Shown: in pieces, positions 15,499 through 21,550 of the stretch | How positions within the stretch are numbered: position 1 is the stretch's first letter | Layout of the letters: every line of letters begins with the position of its first letter | Assembly: GCA_029559035.1 (NCBI GenBank) | Contig: JAKQCT010000088.1 | Location: forward strand, 62,001 to 126,000 | Direction: 5' to 3' | DNA length: 64,000 nt | Source of the DNA: Acidobacteriota bacterium | GTDB lineage: Bacteria; Acidobacteriota; UBA4820 | Translations under genes and position numbers: made by a program | The notes under the pieces: generated by a model | Seen by the model: the letters and a program-made list of their open reading frames with translations, nothing else | Told to the model about the DNA's origin: nothing | The model's database searches: none

Positions 15499-16263
15499 AT
15501 GGGCGCGAAATCACCGCTTGAAATAAAGAACCTGAACCTGTTCTACGGAAAAGAGCAGGTGCTTAAAAACATTAACCTGACCATTCCGGACAAGGGTATA
15601 ACCGTCATACTCGGCCCATCGGGCTGCGGGAAATCGACGCTCCTGAAGTGCTTCAACAGGATCATAGAACTGGAGGAGAACGTGAGGGTCGAAGGAGAGC
15701 TTCTCCTGGACGGCGAGGACATCCTCCACCCCAAGACGGACCTCATCGAGCTAAGGAAGAAAATGGGGCTTCTGATGCAGAAGCCGCAGGTGCTTCCGAT
15801 GTCGATCTACGACAACGTCGCCTTCGGCGCGAAGCTCCACAACAAGATGAAAAAGAAGGATGTGGACAGGCTCGTCGAGAGGGAACTGAAAAAGGTCAAC
15901 CTTTGGGACGAGGTCAGGGACAGGCTGAGCGCCCCCGCTTACAGGCTCTCGATCGGGCAACAGCAGAGGCTCTGCCTGGCGAGGGGGCTCGCGGTGGAAC
16001 CGGAGATCATCCTCGGCGACGAGCCGACGTCGGCGCTCGACCCGGTTTCGGGCGAGCACATCGAGAAGCAGTTCCTCGCGCTCAGGGAGAACTACACGAT
16101 CGTGCTGGTGACGCACATCCTGAGGCAGGCGAGGAGGCTCGCGGATTACGTGGCTTTCATCTATCTCGGGGAACTCATCGAAGCGGCGCCCGCGGCTGAG
16201 TTCTTCAGCAACCCGAAGGACGAACGCACGAAGAAATATCTTTCGGGCATCCTCGCGGGATAG
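15499..16263 (+). CDS. pstB: Phosphate-type ABC transporter ATPase PstB
   Basis: A 254-residue ATPase. Walker A is GPSGCGKST (39-47). The PMSIYDNVAFGAKLH stretch after the Q-loop is characteristic of PstB. The Walker B region is EIILGDEPTSALDP, and the switch His lies in LVTHILRQA. The ABC signature reads LSIGQQQR instead of LSGGQQQR, an uncommon change at the glycine that contacts ATP. It energises import through PstC/PstA. The operon ends with a perfect terminator at 16298-16325; no phoU follows. A diverged copy of its last 67 codons lies at 16416-16619. Confidence 0.9.
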   Translation: MGAKSPLEIKNLNLFYGKEQVLKNINLTIPDKGITVILGPSGCGKSTLLKCFNRIIELEENVRVEGELLLDGEDILHPKTDLIELRKKMGLLMQKPQVLPMSIYDNVAFGAKLHNKMKKKDVDRLVERELKKVNLWDEVRDRLSAPAYRLSIGQQQRLCLARGLAVEPEIILGDEPTSALDPVSGEHIEKQFLALRENYTIVLVTHILRQARRLADYVAFIYLGELIEAAPAAEFFSNPKDERTKKYLSGILAG

Positions 16264-16297
16264 AATAGAGCGGAAGCGCGGAAGCATTGTCTGCATA

Positions 16298-16338: not shown

Positions 16339-16406
16339 GGGGTCAGGTCTTTACTTTTAGCGTGTCAGGATTTGTGCTATCTGACTAAATATAAAGACCT
16401 GACCCC
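16339..16406. repeat. Palindromic GGGGTCAGGTCTTTA element
   Basis: GGGGTCAGGTCTTTA (16339-16353) and its exact reverse complement (16392-16406) bracket 38 bp of AT-rich sequence. This is a 68-bp REP-like or miniature mobile element with 15-bp perfect ends, placed precisely between the pst terminator and the second pstB fragment. It carries no coding capacity. Similar GGGGTCAGG words recur at 20766, 21157 and 37188. Confidence 0.75.
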
Positions 16407-16415
16407 GCAAGCCCC

Positions 16416-16619
16416 ATCGAGAAGCAATTCCTCGCGCTCAGAGAGAACTACACGATCGTGCTGGTGACGCACATACTGAGGCAGGCGAGGAGGCTCGCGG
16501 ATTACGTGGCTTTCATCTATCTCGGCGAGCTGATCGAAGCCGCGCCCGCGCAAGAATTTTTTAGCAACCCGAAGGACGAAAGAACCAAGAATTATCTCTC
16601 GGGAACGCTTGCGGGATAG
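16416..16619 (+). pseudogene. 3' fragment of a second, diverged pstB
   Basis: These 204 bases align without gaps to the end of pstB (16060-16263), stop codon included. Codon by codon I count 18 differing codons, 15 of them synonymous. The encoded tail still reads like a functional PstB end (LVTHILRQARRLADYVAF, then EFFSNPKDERTK). There is no start codon or ribosome-binding site, and the fragment begins 9 bp after the palindromic element. The silent-dominated divergence means it evolved as part of a full gene before being placed here. It is therefore a relic of another pstB rather than a fresh local duplication. Confidence 0.85.
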
Positions 16620-16650
16620 ATCAAGCTTCGCTGGACGCTCCCGCTTCCCA

Positions 16651-16677
16651 AAGAGGGGAGCGATCCTCTCCCCTCTT
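16651..16677 (+). terminator. Hairpin terminator after the pstB fragment
   Basis: AAGAGGGGAG (16651-16660) and CTCCCCTCTT (16668-16677) form a perfect 10-bp stem with a 7-base loop. It is followed by TTAGGCGCT, the same word that follows the terminator at 21517-21543 on the opposite strand. The T-tract is short. Confidence 0.7.
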
Positions 16678-16730
16678 AGGCGCTTCGCTCATCGACTCGC
16701 TGCGCTGAACACCCCCCCGGCAGGGAAAAC

Positions 16731-16756
16731 GCCTTAGCGCGAAGTGAATTCGACGC
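16731..16756 (+). repeat. Left copy of a 26-bp inverted repeat bracketing the 16.7-21.5 kb locus
   Basis: The sequence from 16731 (GCCTTAGCGCGAAGTGAATT) to 16756 is the exact reverse complement of 21438-21463. It belongs to a longer intergenic module (terminator, TTAGGCGCT, C-rich run, this core) found at both ends of the locus. The rest of 16678-16910 is non-coding, with a TATAAT-like word near 16840. Confidence 0.85.
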
Positions 16757-16910
16757 ACGGCGCAATATCTGAATTAGTATGCCATCAGCCATCAGCCTGC
16801 CCTTCCCACCTGTAGCCTGAAATGGCAAGCTAGAGGGAGTATAATTGTCTCTTGGAACAGGGGGCCGAAGTGGAGCGAGTGGATATAATATCGGCAAAGG
16901 TTTTCGTGAA

Positions 16911-19904
16911 ATGACGACGCCGGATAAATTCATTGCCGGATCAAGATCATGGGATGAATTCTTCAAGCAGGCCTGTGCACTGCCCGCGAGCGCGCCCTGC
17001 AAGGAAGCCTGCAAGGGCAACGTATTCGAGCGCCTCACGCAGCTTTATCTGACCACCCATTCGGAATACAGGACGAAATTGAAGCATGTGTGGAGGGCGA
17101 AGGAGGAGCTTCCCCCCGCGGTAAGGTCGAAGATCAACCTCCCGAAGACGGACGAGGGGATAGATCTTGTCGCCGAGACCTTCGACGGGGATCTCTGGGC
17201 CATCCAGTGCAAGTTCAGGACGGATACGCACACCCCGCTGACCGTCGGGGAGCTTTCGACCTTCACGAACCTCGCCTTCAACTACTGCAACAACATCTCC
17301 CTGGCCGTCGTCGTTCACACCTGCGCGAAACCTGTAAAAAAGAAGCAGTACCTCGGGAAAGCGACAGAGATAGGATTGGAACGGTGGCTGGAACTCGAAG
17401 CCGAGGATTGGCGTCAGATCCGCGAAGCGACCGCGAAACCTCCCTCCCCGCCGAAGCCGCGTGAACCGAGGCCTCACCAGCAGAAAGCCATCGCGGCAGC
17501 CAAAGAACATTTTATAAGTTCCAAAGAGACAAGGGGCCGCCTCATCATGCCCTGCGGGACGGGCAAGAGCCTCACCGCCTTCTGGATCGCCGAAGCGCTC
17601 AAAGCCAGATCTATCCTCGTCGCCGTGCCGAGCCTCCACCTCATCAAGCAGAGCCTCGCCGACTGGACGAAGGAGTTCCTCGCGAGGGGAGAGATCCCCG
17701 ACTGGCTTGTCGTCTGCAGCGACGAGACAACGGGAAAGCTGGAGGACGATTTCGTCAGCGACAGCTACGAACTGGGCGTGGACGCCACCACCGACCGGGA
17801 TGAGATCGGCAGATTCCTCTCAAAGAAGTCCGCGAAGAAAAAGATCGTCTTCTCGACATACCAGAGCGGGAAACCCTTGGCGGCCGCCGCGAGAAGCGCG
17901 GGATTCTCATTCGACCTGGGTATCATGGACGAAGCCCATAGGACGGTCGGCTCCCCGGACAAATCTTTCGGCCATCTGATCACCGACAAGAACGTCGCTA
18001 TCAGGAAGAGGCTCTTCATGACCGCCACCGAGAGAGTTGTGCGGGAGAAGGATGAGACCGTCCTCTCGATGGACGACTCCGAGGTTTACGGAAAATGCTT
18101 CCACCAGCTCACCTTCAAGGAGGCGATCGAAGCCGACCCGCCCATAATCTCCGACTACAAGATAATAACTATAACGGTGAGCGACGAAAGCGTGAAGCGG
18201 TTCATCGAGGATAACAGCTATCTGAAGACTGGCGACGAGGAATTGGGCCAGCGCGAGGCGCAGGCCTTGGCGGCAGGGATAGCCCTCCAGCGAGCGTTCC
18301 GCGAAGAAGGAGTGAAGCACACCATCTCTTTCCATCGGAGCATCCGTTCGGCGGAGGATTTCAGGGAACAGCAGGAACAGATCGAGAGCCGGATAAAAGA
18401 TATCGAACCGCCGCGGGCTTTGCACATATCGAGCAGAAAAACCGCTGGGGAGAGAGCCGAGCTTCTGCGCGAGTTCCGGGAAGCCAATACCGCCCTCATC
18501 ACCAACGCCAGGTGCCTCCAGGAAGGCGTCGACATCCCCGCCGTCGACTGCGTCCTCTTCGCCGATCCCAAGCAGAGCGTCGTGGACATCGTCCAGGCGG
18601 CGGGACGCGCCATGCGCCCCTGCAAAGGCAAGAAGTTCGGTTACATAGTCGTCCCCATCGTCGTCCCTTCAGGCATGGCGTTCGCCGACTTCGCCGAGAC
18701 AACCGAGTTCAAGCAGGTCGGAAGAGTCGTGACGGCACTATCCACCCAGGACGACCGCATCGCCGAAGAGTTCCGCGGAGTCAAAGCCAAAGGCAACGGA
18801 AAGGAGAGAGAAGAGAGGATCGTCGAGATAAAAGGCGATGTCCCCGTAGCCCAGCACATCGACCTAGAAGCCTTCCGCGAACAGGTGAGGCTCAAGCTCT
18901 GGGAAAGAGTCGGAAGGGCGAACTGGAGACCGTTCCAAGAGGCGAGAGAGTGGGTCAGAGGGTTGGGGCTGAAGAATGAGAAAAATTGGCGCATTTTCTC
19001 AAAGAGCAAAGATCTTCCTCCCGATATTCCTGCAACTCCAAACAGTACTTATAAGAATAAAGGCTGGAGTGGTATGGGTGACTGGTTGGGGACTGGGAGA
19101 ACTTTCAGAGGACATTGCAGGCCTTTCTTGAAAGCCCGGGAATTTGCAAGATCTCTAGGTCTTAAGAATTTCATGACATGGGTGACGTTTTGTTCTAATG
19201 GAAACTTACCGAATGATATTCCTTCCGCTCCACAGGTAGCGTATCGTAATAGTGGCTGGGTAAGCTGGGGTGACTGGCTTGGAACAGGAGCGATCTCATC
19301 AGCCAAGAGGCAGTATCTTTCGTTTGAGAATGCTAGATCATTTGCGAAGAGTCTTCAACTAAGCAATCAAAAACAATGGCAAGCTTTTGCACGTTCTGGG
19401 GAACTCCCTAATGATATTCCTGCAGTTCCTAATCATGTATATCGAAACGATGGATGGGATGGATATGGGGATTGGTTGGGAACGGAAAATATAGCAAAAT
19501 CACAACTCAAATATCGCCCATTTACGGATGCAAGAAATTATGCCAGAAGTCTTGGATTGAGAAATAGAGAAGAGTGGAACGCTTTTGCAAAAAGCGGAGG
19601 TCTGCCATCGGACATTCCTGTAAATGCTTGGCAAACTTATAGAGGCAAAGGGTTTGTTGGATGGGGTGATTGGCTAGGAACCAATAGGCCAATAAAGCGG
19701 ATTGTAAAATATATGCCTTTTACTAAAGCCCGTACCTATGCAAGAAAGCAGGGACTAAAAAATGTATATGAATGGCGGGATTTCTGTAAAGGTGGGAAAT
19801 TACCCGCCGATATTCCAGCCACACCAAACCAAATATACGGAAACCAAGGTTGGGTCGGATGGAGCGATTGGTTGGGCAATGGCAGATCACGCAGGAAGAA
19901 ATAA
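16911..19904 (+). CDS. Mrr-like nuclease / SF2 helicase with five C-terminal INT_rpt-like repeats
   Basis: 997 residues from ATG 16911 (a TTG at 16845 would add 22 unconvincing residues). Residues about 20-110 resemble the Mrr/type ISP nuclease: a KGNVFERLTQLY helix, EGIDLVAE with Asp85 and WAIQCKF with Gln99/Lys101. The helicase follows: Walker A CGTGKS (215-220), DEAH (340-343), TAT motif FMTATER and motif VI QAAGRAMRP from Gln562. From about 670 there are five units of about 65 residues: PF-AR-YARSLGL, EW-F, LP-DIPA-PN-Y and GW-GWGDWLGTG. These match the phage-integrase repeat (PF14882-type), a likely DNA-binding unit. The role is probably anti-mobile-element defence. Composition turns AT-rich inside the first repeat. 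Confidence 0.82.
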   Translation: MTTPDKFIAGSRSWDEFFKQACALPASAPCKEACKGNVFERLTQLYLTTHSEYRTKLKHVWRAKEELPPAVRSKINLPKTDEGIDLVAETFDGDLWAIQCKFRTDTHTPLTVGELSTFTNLAFNYCNNISLAVVVHTCAKPVKKKQYLGKATEIGLERWLELEAEDWRQIREATAKPPSPPKPREPRPHQQKAIAAAKEHFISSKETRGRLIMPCGTGKSLTAFWIAEALKARSILVAVPSLHLIKQSLADWTKEFLARGEIPDWLVVCSDETTGKLEDDFVSDSYELGVDATTDRDEIGRFLSKKSAKKKIVFSTYQSGKPLAAAARSAGFSFDLGIMDEAHRTVGSPDKSFGHLITDKNVAIRKRLFMTATERVVREKDETVLSMDDSEVYGKCFHQLTFKEAIEADPPIISDYKIITITVSDESVKRFIEDNSYLKTGDEELGQREAQALAAGIALQRAFREEGVKHTISFHRSIRSAEDFREQQEQIESRIKDIEPPRALHISSRKTAGERAELLREFREANTALITNARCLQEGVDIPAVDCVLFADPKQSVVDIVQAAGRAMRPCKGKKFGYIVVPIVVPSGMAFADFAETTEFKQVGRVVTALSTQDDRIAEEFRGVKAKGNGKEREERIVEIKGDVPVAQHIDLEAFREQVRLKLWERVGRANWRPFQEAREWVRGLGLKNEKNWRIFSKSKDLPPDIPATPNSTYKNKGWSGMGDWLGTGRTFRGHCRPFLKAREFARSLGLKNFMTWVTFCSNGNLPNDIPSAPQVAYRNSGWVSWGDWLGTGAISSAKRQYLSFENARSFAKSLQLSNQKQWQAFARSGELPNDIPAVPNHVYRNDGWDGYGDWLGTENIAKSQLKYRPFTDARNYARSLGLRNREEWNAFAKSGGLPSDIPVNAWQTYRGKGFVGWGDWLGTNRPIKRIVKYMPFTKARTYARKQGLKNVYEWRDFCKGGKLPADIPATPNQIYGNQGWVGWSDWLGNGRSRRKK

Positions 19905-19940: not shown

Positions 19941-20759
19941 ATTAAACCAAAGGTTAAGATTGTACTCGACGCAGAACAATGGCCTGATTTGCAGGCCTAT
20001 GATCAAGTAATTTCTGATTTAGGAATTAGGGCTAGCGATGAAACATCTGCATCTCATCACCTGGCAATAATTCGTAGCGCAACTAACGATGGAACAGTTA
20101 TAACATCCTGTAGGTCTGAATTCTGGGAGGCTTTAAAATATGTTACAAAACTTACAGAAATTATAAATGCGCTAAAATCCCAGCCACCAAATGAACTTAG
20201 AAAGAAGCTTAATATAGTTCTTTCATGTAAAACAAATGAAGCTAATGATGTTTTATATGAACTGCAACTTGCAGCTTTGTTCAAGGAATCAGGATTTGAA
20301 GTTTCCTTAGAAGAACCGGATATCATAATTTCAGGTAAAGGTCTTAAAAACAAATTGGCAATTGCGTGCAAGAATCCGACTAGCAAAAAGCAATTGCATG
20401 ATCATGTTTCTAATGGATATTTTCAGATTAATAGGGTTGGATATCAAGGCATCGTGGCTATAGAAACAAATCAACTGTTGGATTTACCAAAGAAAACATT
20501 CGAACAACCACCCCTTAAGGAAGCAGAGAATCTGCTCACTCGATCAGTAGGTGAATGGGTAGATGAAAGGCTTCGCAACTACCCCTCCGAGAACCCAATA
20601 GATGGCTTTTTGCTTACCTATTTTATTGATTACTTTTATGGTGATCCTGTTGAACTTAGCCAAATTAGACAAATGACTTTTCAATGTGATGAGAACAATA
20701 ACCTATTCAGAGAGTTGAAGATATTGGTTGATGCAGTAAAAGAAGCCATCGTGAAATAG
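19941..20759 (+). CDS. Unknown protein, possible PD-(D/E)XK nuclease, probable ATT start
   Basis: The frame is open from just after the helicase stop and lies in the same frame. A strong GGAGGAG (19930-19936) is followed four bases later by in-frame ATT at 19941; the first standard codon is TTG at 19989. Starting at ATT gives 272 residues beginning (M)KPKVKIVLDAEQWPDL; starting at TTG gives 256. A core of Glu in YELQLAALFKESGFEVSLEE, then PDIII and LAIACK, resembles a PD-(D/E)XK nuclease with the last acidic residue replaced. The gene is AT-rich, like the end of the helicase, and probably moved with it. The nuclease call is tentative; I recognise no named family. Confidence 0.65.
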   Translation: MKPKVKIVLDAEQWPDLQAYDQVISDLGIRASDETSASHHLAIIRSATNDGTVITSCRSEFWEALKYVTKLTEIINALKSQPPNELRKKLNIVLSCKTNEANDVLYELQLAALFKESGFEVSLEEPDIIISGKGLKNKLAIACKNPTSKKQLHDHVSNGYFQINRVGYQGIVAIETNQLLDLPKKTFEQPPLKEAENLLTRSVGEWVDERLRNYPSENPIDGFLLTYFIDYFYGDPVELSQIRQMTFQCDENNNLFRELKILVDAVKEAIVK

Positions 20760-20765
20760 AACCTC

Positions 20766-20814
20766 GGGGTCAGGGCTTTAGTCTTGAATCTCGCAGGATA
20801 AGGTAGTTCACTTC
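20766..20814 (+). repeat. 49-bp direct repeat, copy 1 (GGGGTCAGGGCTTTAG family)
   Basis: It begins GGGGTCAGGGCTTTAGTCTT and runs to 20814. It matches 21157-21205 with two mismatches, and the pair brackets the cupin gene. Its first 24 bases also occur reversed at 37188-37211. Confidence 0.85.
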
Positions 20815-20841
20815 ACTTGTCGTGGCTTTGGCCTTCCCCCT

Positions 20842-21105: not shown

Positions 21106-21156
21106 CCTGGCCTTGCCCTTGCCGCCCCTGATGTCCTCTCTGTCTATCGTAACCCC

Positions 21157-21205
21157 GGGGTCAGGGCTTTAGTCTTGAATCTCGCGGGATAAGGTAGATC
21201 ACTTC
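21157..21205 (+). repeat. 49-bp direct repeat, copy 2
   Basis: Same sequence and orientation as 20766-20814 with two mismatches. It abuts the broken 5' end of the cupin frame. The gap from here to 21437 has no gene. It holds a GATCCTGTTCATCC phrase at about 21257-21270, also seen near 27521, and a GC hairpin near 21331-21353. Confidence 0.85.
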
Positions 21206-21437
21206 GTTTGGAATGCTGCGGGCCTTTCTCGTGATGACCGGATTCTATAACTTGCCGATCCTGTTCATCCTAGTGAATTGTAATTGTTTTTCTCTGTGTC
21301 CTCTGTAGTAAATGTTGTTGTCTTTTCTTTAAGGGCGGTTTTTGAGCCCGCCCCTATGGAAAATCAACATTCCCTGTCGACCCTTCCGCCATCAGCCTTC
21401 AGCCATCCTGCACGCAGGGCATAGAATGTTGTGCCAA

Positions 21438-21463
21438 GCGTCGAATTCACTTCGCGCTAAGGC
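21438..21463 (-). repeat. Right copy of the 26-bp inverted repeat
   Basis: Exact reverse complement of 16731-16756. Reading the minus strand, the order terminator hairpin, TTAGGCGCT, C-run, 26-bp core, then CAGCC-rich sequence is the same as on the left side. The locus is therefore flanked by two inverted copies of one intergenic module of roughly 110-150 bp. Confidence 0.85.
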
Positions 21464-21516
21464 ACATTCATTATGCGGGGGTGGATCAGCGAAACGAGCA
21501 TGCGAGTGGAGCGCCT

Positions 21517-21543
21517 AAGGAGGGAGTGCAACGCTCCCTCCTT
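21517..21543 (-). terminator. Terminator of the secreted repeat protein gene
   Basis: AAGGAGGGAG and CTCCCTCCTT form a perfect 10-bp stem with a 7-base loop, 8 bp beyond the stop of the minus-strand gene ending at 21551. On the minus strand it is followed by TTAGGCGCT, as at 16678. Confidence 0.7.
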
Positions 21544-21550
21544 GGGGAGA

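Follow-up and report, generated by a model that had tools for sequence, protein, structure and literature searches.

Type ISP restriction enzymes, of which LlaGI and LlaBIII are the described examples closest to the protein considered here, are single chains with an N-terminal Mrr-type nuclease and an SF2 motor, followed by a coupler, a methyltransferase and a specificity domain. Translocation starts at an unmodified site, and cleavage follows a collision (PMC4666363; PMC7049714). Their specificity lies in the methylase and the specificity domain, which are hard to redesign, and they protect self by methylation. SauUSI, an ATP-dependent type IV enzyme, likewise combines nuclease, helicase motor and target reader in one chain; it has no methylase and reads its target through a single methyl-reading domain. 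The target has to be methylated (PMC7913695). Two further groups bear on the comparison. HA-repeat helicases (PF03457) carry kin of the same motor with a C-terminal array of four to seven repeats of ~65 aa; literature searches on PF03457 returned nothing relevant. INT_rpt units (PF14882) occur in GmtZ/VPA1269 of the gamma-mobile-trio islands, together with an Integrase_2 domain, as well as in jumbo-phage proteins, viral helicase fusions and repeat-only ORFs. No functional literature on INT_rpt was found, PF14882 being merely listed in one repeat-modelling paper.

The window analysed here (the whole 64,000-nt stretch of DNA) contains a gene in which a nuclease and an SF2 motor are joined to five INT_rpt units. 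Its product, P0001, has the following layout.

16911..19904, + strand: whole gene (ATG start), nuclease-helicase-INT_rpt fusion P0001, 997 aa
16968..17438, + strand: PD-(D/E)XK nuclease domain of Mrr_cat_2 type, residues ~20-176 (Pfam PF13156, invariant residues, model, LlaBIII alignment)
17451..18785, + strand: SF2 helicase/translocase motor, residues 181-625, with GTGKS, DEAH, TAT and QAAGRAMR (Pfam ResIII and Helicase_C; LlaBIII/LlaGI by sequence and fold)
18786..18917, + strand: low-confidence linker and helix joining motor to repeats, residues 626-669 (pLDDT below 50 at 621-671)
18918..19091, + strand: repeat 1, residues 670-727 (family profile 81.7 bits)
19092..19283, + strand: repeat 2, residues 728-791 (71.2 bits)
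19284..19481, + strand: repeat 3, residues 792-857 (86.9 bits)
19482..19679, + strand: repeat 4, residues 858-923 (76.7 bits)
19680..19877, + strand: repeat 5, residues 924-989 (79.5 bits)
18918..19904, + strand: compositionally foreign module, the repeat half (GC at 4-fold sites, with a break at the array start)

The ATG is preceded by AAAGG, and the frame is already open from a TTG at 16845. This layout agrees with a first-pass annotation of the locus, which had recognised nuclease motifs and an entire SF2 helicase ahead of five repeated units. We favour a reading of P0001 as a restriction-like motor nuclease that works as one protein without a methylase, reads DNA through its repeats and is re-targeted by swapping of the array; our estimate of its probability is about 0.52. 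It would then be a defence enzyme of restriction type that has not been described before, a possibility already raised in the first-pass annotation.

The nuclease-motor half is of type ISP kind

Pfam identifies three families in the enzyme half: Mrr_cat_2 (PF13156) at residues 49-146 (E 7e-14), ResIII at 185-373 (E 7e-18) and Helicase_C at 464-569 (E 2e-12). The nuclease had been assigned to PF04471/Mrr, for which PF13156 has to be substituted, and the catalytic set singled out at the time (Asp85, Gln99, Lys101) is correct. E40, D81, D85, Q99 and K101 are invariant in 18 homologues, and D85/Q99/K101 align with D78/Q92/K94 of LlaBIII. Likewise invariant are the P-loop GxGK, DEAH and QAxGRxxR motifs of the motor. 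To judge from this conservation, the family is maintained as an active enzyme, with nuclease and motor under strong constraint.

In an AlphaFold2 model built with 18 homologues, the nuclease is alpha-beta and the motor has two lobes; a disordered joint (621-671) leads to an array that is helical throughout. The alpha-beta order of the nuclease fits a PD-(D/E)XK core at 35-136 with good confidence, and the nuclease fold, the lack of which would have told against the first-pass annotation, is thus present. By sequence, the closest solved relative is LlaBIII (residues 34-618, E 1.5e-61), with LlaGI next; Foldseek also ranks LlaBIII first for the model (E 3e-32) and lists SauUSI among the fold matches to the motor. 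The top PADLOC model, for a type IIG restriction-methylase, spans 1646 positions, of which only the first 661 are matched. The first 618 residues are thus type ISP-like, as had been proposed, and in both cases the gene is solitary.

Past the motor the likeness ends. Neither the ISP coupler (PF22240) nor the Type_ISP_C specificity domain (PF18135) is found by Pfam in P0001, whereas the ISP controls do match (L019, L020 and L025 for the former, L019 and L020 for the latter). Linker 626-669 sits at the coupler position, and the INT_rpt repeats occupy that of the specificity domain. Pfam gave no match to an adenine-N6 methyltransferase domain in P0001 or in four scanned family members, and no modification gene is conserved beside the family loci. 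The P0001 family therefore cannot protect self as ISP enzymes do. The earlier statement that there is no modification enzyme stands on these grounds. Its companion, that methylase and target-recognition domain had been replaced by the repeats, holds for their absence; replacement is not supported, the family forming a separate clade that is not nested in ISP.

Lack of a methylase would also be explained if P0001 were a modification-dependent, type IV-like restriction enzyme, its repeats recognising modified or abnormal DNA and not plain sequence. SauUSI, which matches the motor by fold and needs a methylated target, is a functional precedent (PMC7913695). However, one domain suffices to read a modification, whereas the family carries 4-12 exchangeable units that differ in their hypervariable residues, and Pfam detected no SRA or other modification-binding domain in P0001; we consider this explanation quite unlikely. 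The resemblance to SauUSI in fold is confined to the motor; the nuclease of SauUSI is PLD-type.

The repeats belong to the INT_rpt family

The five units end at residues 727, 791, 857, 923 and 989. Units 2 to 5 measure 64-66 aa and unit 1 is shorter (~58 aa). Five units of ~65 residues were thus counted correctly in the first-pass annotation, while the GWxGWGDWLGTG ending given for them is approximate, as the fifth unit ends GWVGWSDWLGNG. The INT_rpt family itself (PF14882) is matched in P0001 below the Pfam gathering cut-off (20.8 vs 26.5 bits), which other members exceed (73.8 bits in L122, 28.0 bits in L050). A repeat profile built from family units other than those of P0001, with the window left out, finds exactly five units in P0001 at 71-87 bits each; it also matches GmtZ (7-8 stretches) and the jumbo-phage INT_rpt protein (five). 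Recovery of all three sets of repeats by one profile shows that the proposed INT_rpt assignment is right, the sub-threshold Pfam score notwithstanding. HA repeats were not found in P0001 by Pfam, nor were the HA controls matched by the INT_rpt family profile.

Modelled alone, the array has a pLDDT of 89.6 and four helices per unit; the mean net charge per unit is +4. A Foldseek search of the five-repeat model against the PDB returned nothing usable, and hence no solved relative of the repeat fold. A weak PDB match named 'Tet4 Variant' covers ~60 residues at ~6 bits per stretch; it recurs three times along the chain and was put down to chance.

A rare family with a patchy distribution

Single-sequence scans of genome contigs and viral contigs with P0001 gave no matches. 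The family was found by an alignment weighted to the repeats, which yielded 38 loci in genome contigs; 16 of these encode intact full-length nuclease-helicase-repeat proteins of 4-10 units besides P0001. Of the incomplete loci, L035 is interrupted within its array, L042 is split, and others run off the ends of their contigs. Genome searches added two members, L121 and L122; as 12 units were detected in L122, arrays range from 4 to 12 units across relatives. Hosts belong to seven phyla (Bacteroidota, Verrucomicrobiota, Lentisphaerota, Acidobacteriota, Pseudomonadota, Myxococcota and Thermodesulfobacteriota). The family is rare and patchily spread: carriers amount to one of 297 Acidobacteriota genomes (the window's own), four of 338 Verrucomicrobiota genomes (two of them seeds) and one of 346 Bacteroidota genomes (the seed itself), and ISP-type matches were several times commoner in the same searches. 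The majority of members are known from metagenome assemblies, in which repeats may be wrongly assembled; L049 (472-3828), however, is from an isolate, Salinimicrobium xinjiangense DSM 19287.

In a motor tree of 36 rows, the P0001 family lies on one side of a branch (90/94) and the ISP enzymes on another (100/97). P0001 groups with a Bacteroidota sequence, and more than one phylum is represented in several of the sub-clades, which indicates transfer. Because the tree is unrooted and its viral rows sit on long branches, we claim no direction for any replacement of domains. Sporadic occurrence and cross-phylum clades would count for a restriction-type explanation.

The motor also occurs with the other kind of repeat. 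L079:125-3379 and L078:954-3827 encode Mrr nuclease-helicase-HA proteins and belong to the genomes of L044 and L056, respectively, which carry the INT_rpt version as well. HA and INT_rpt being different sequence families, one nuclease-helicase chassis thus takes two unrelated repeat arrays. Relatives of this kind raise the question whether P0001 might be a helicase of mobile elements or DNA processing (transfer, end maintenance, recombination or competition between elements), addressed to particular elements by its repeats. The same motor family with C-terminal HA repeats is found on Streptomyces and Pseudomonas plasmids, mobile islands (through GmtZ), phages and viruses all encode proteins with INT_rpt units, and several family neighbours are integrases. 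Yet the HA helicases scanned on plasmids are free of nuclease, unlike the P0001 family with its strictly conserved nuclease site, and the plasmid, phage and viral contigs searched yielded no full-length member. This alternative appears unlikely to us.

The array is exchanged whole and unit by unit

Close relatives differ sharply in their repeats. Between L036 and L051 the enzyme halves are 95% identical and repeats 1, 2, 5, 6 and 7 are 93-99% identical, but repeats 3 and 4 share only 70% and 66% of their residues. At the DNA level repeats 3 and 4 are 67% and 73% identical, compared to 94-99% for the remaining repeats. The difference thus appears as a two-unit replacement, of repeats 3-4 alone. 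As units within the L036 and L051 arrays differ from one another (mean identity 56%), collapse during assembly is unlikely. L038 has an enzyme 91% identical to those of L036 and L051, nine units against their seven, and best unit matches of 0.56-0.73 (0.56-0.71 to L051). In the pair L041/L122 the enzymes share 85% identity and the units match at best at 0.47-0.59. Going by these alignments, the repeats are an exchangeable module, swapped between relatives both whole and unit by unit, which is new here.

Composition changes at the same boundary. GC at 4-fold sites in the window gene is 0.81 in the enzyme half vs 0.35 in the repeats (z 9.6), and plain GC drops from ~0.59 to ~0.43 at the array start. 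Corresponding 4-fold-site values are 0.88 and 0.29 in L036, 0.85 and 0.31 in L051, and 0.85 and 0.40 in L038. A codon-usage break at the array was seen in the window, L036, L038, L040, L044, L046 and L051. It is missing from L037, whose repeats have a 4-fold-site GC of 0.74; low GC is therefore not intrinsic to the repeats. In high-GC hosts the repeat half carries foreign codon usage.

One Lentisphaerae genome (RIFOXYA12_64_32; L080, L081 and further contigs) encodes a full-length member together with at least four repeat-only INT_rpt ORFs of 616-876 aa. These ORFs are possible donors for array exchange.

Hypervariable positions within a constant framework

In arrays made of similar units, differences cluster at positions 3, 6, 7, 29, 30, 33, 52, 53, 55, 56 and 66. 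Non-synonymous changes affect these positions in 0.62-0.79 of unit pairs; at framework positions they mostly stay below 0.1, with synonymous changes reaching 0.3-0.5. Hot positions chosen in two viral arrays predict the variable ones in 13 bacterial arrays (mean entropy 1.64 vs 0.69; 0 of 20,000 permutations). The alignments thus point to ~11 hypervariable positions per unit, set in a rigid framework and common to viral and bacterial arrays. By predicted secondary structure, most of them fall in the inter-unit linker or where helices 2, 3 and 4 begin. We make no claim of positive selection, as the non-synonymous excess at hot positions is close to the neutral expectation.

The first-pass annotation had spoken of a modular, repeat-based DNA reader. 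Array turnover and the hypervariable positions give strong support to modularity; DNA reading is the inferred part, against which it may be said that surface loops vary in any repeat protein. Hypervariability and swapping also mark ligand-sensing repeat arrays. The repeats could accordingly be a protein- or RNA-binding sensor or a multimerisation scaffold, with swapping that tracks phage proteins and a nuclease-helicase that is non-specific once triggered, and a repeat fold lacking a solved DNA-binding relative in the PDB (Foldseek) would suit such a role. The known INT_rpt partners, however, are DNA-acting enzymes, the units are net positive, and the array stands where ISP enzymes have their specificity domain. 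We therefore hold a sensor or scaffold to be very improbable. Fusion of INT_rpt units to other DNA enzymes, such as the GmtZ integrase and an HNH-like jumbo-phage protein, would rather favour a DNA-reading role.

If P0001 is a DNA-reading motor nuclease, its units would lie along duplex DNA and jointly recognise a sequence or a structural feature; each would make its contribution by way of the inter-unit linker and the residues with which helices 2-4 begin. Binding of the target by the array would switch on the motor, which would then translocate; by analogy with LlaGI and LlaBIII, the nuclease would cut when motors collide or stall. As no methylase accompanies the protein, we propose that the host would be spared because the array target is absent, rare or wrongly arranged in its genome. 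The simplest guess is a long composite target that the host lacks, or a need for paired sites. The missing methylase nevertheless tells against this reading, as protection of self is left to be accounted for. Swapping of arrays would re-target the enzyme against changing invaders.

A bolder proposal, which we regard as possible but doubtful, is that INT_rpt arrays represent a hitherto undescribed class of repeat that recognises specific DNA sequences in modular fashion. A short duplex stretch would be read by each unit through its fixed set of hypervariable residues, and bacteria would shuffle units and whole arrays to re-target a methylase-free motor nuclease. The reader would be common to integrases, HNH-type phage proteins and viral helicases, and a readable, engineerable code may exist. 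HsdS target-recognition domains and TAL effector repeats offer an analogy, being exchangeable modules with few variable residues in a constant framework; their folds are unrelated to INT_rpt, for which no code is established.

Should the repeats read DNA, targeting of a restriction-type enzyme would evolve by exchange of a cassette, here a visibly swapped tandem-repeat module, with no matching methylase. How self is spared would become a testable question, and a function would be given to INT_rpt units in mobile islands, jumbo phages and viral helicases.

Genomic surroundings

The window gene sits between pstB and a cupin-like ORF, outside any defence island, with no defence genes adjoining it. 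No neighbour is common to most family loci, which suggests that a P0001-type protein is probably self-sufficient. Clear defence or restriction genes adjoin four of 25 loci. L050 has BrxL and PglZ (BREX) as neighbours, along with a helicase that weakly resembles Nhi/PDC-S41; L048 adjoins AbiEi/AbiEii and PDC-S02, L042 is near PDC-S02, and L122 adjoins a BglII-type endonuclease. Weaker defence-like neighbours were seen at L041 (IetA-like) and L043 (caspase-like). The remaining loci lie among housekeeping or uncharacterised genes, and several neighbours elsewhere are integrases. The defence surroundings expected from the first-pass annotation are thus met with at some loci and not at the rest, and locus context backs a defence role at most moderately; that the majority of loci lie outside defence islands tells against it.

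Several minor features surround the gene in the window. The pstB 3' end is duplicated upstream of it (16059-16264 and 16415-16620; 206 nt, 89%), and a short palindromic GGGGTCAGGTC... element lies between the copies, at 16339-16406; the arrangement points to past recombination at this spot. Directly downstream, 19989-20759 encodes an AT-rich orphan of 256 aa (GC ~0.36) in which a PD-(D/E)XK-like E...PDII...IACK pattern can be recognised by eye. Its only relatives, at 26%, are on Pseudomonas and Stenotrophomonas plasmids. We rejected this gene as an obligate partner, as it is not kept beside other members and a search of 148 further genomes of the phylum turned up no relative. Two dispersed non-coding repeat families flank the gene (16646-16768, 21426-21548, 20760-20819 and 21151-21210). 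The 123-nt family has ~40 copies in the genome and the GGGGTCAGGGCTTTAG family ~10. A long inverted repeat around the gene, considered as transposon ends, was accordingly set aside as a dispersed repeat with ~40 genome copies.

Other INT_rpt proteins

A protein encoded by a 485-kb phage (L016:5221-6999, LR745208.1) consists of an N-terminal half that looks HNH-like by eye, with no Pfam match, followed by five INT_rpt units; it is possibly a homing-type endonuclease with the same reader. Like GmtZ, it has homologous repeats but an HNH-like or integrase-like partner domain in place of a motor nuclease. The order is reversed in L027:5995-10224, L057:7974-11696 and L058:2008-6867, where an INT_rpt array precedes an SF2 helicase and a Methyltransf_8 domain; the sources are a viral contig, a cyanobacterium and an Anaerolineaceae MAG. 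About six consecutive INT_rpt paralogues stand in a row in L029:5428-12365 (a 308-kb viral contig) and in L062:7995-17304 (a Nitrosopumilus contig); both rows look like expanding clusters of repeat proteins.
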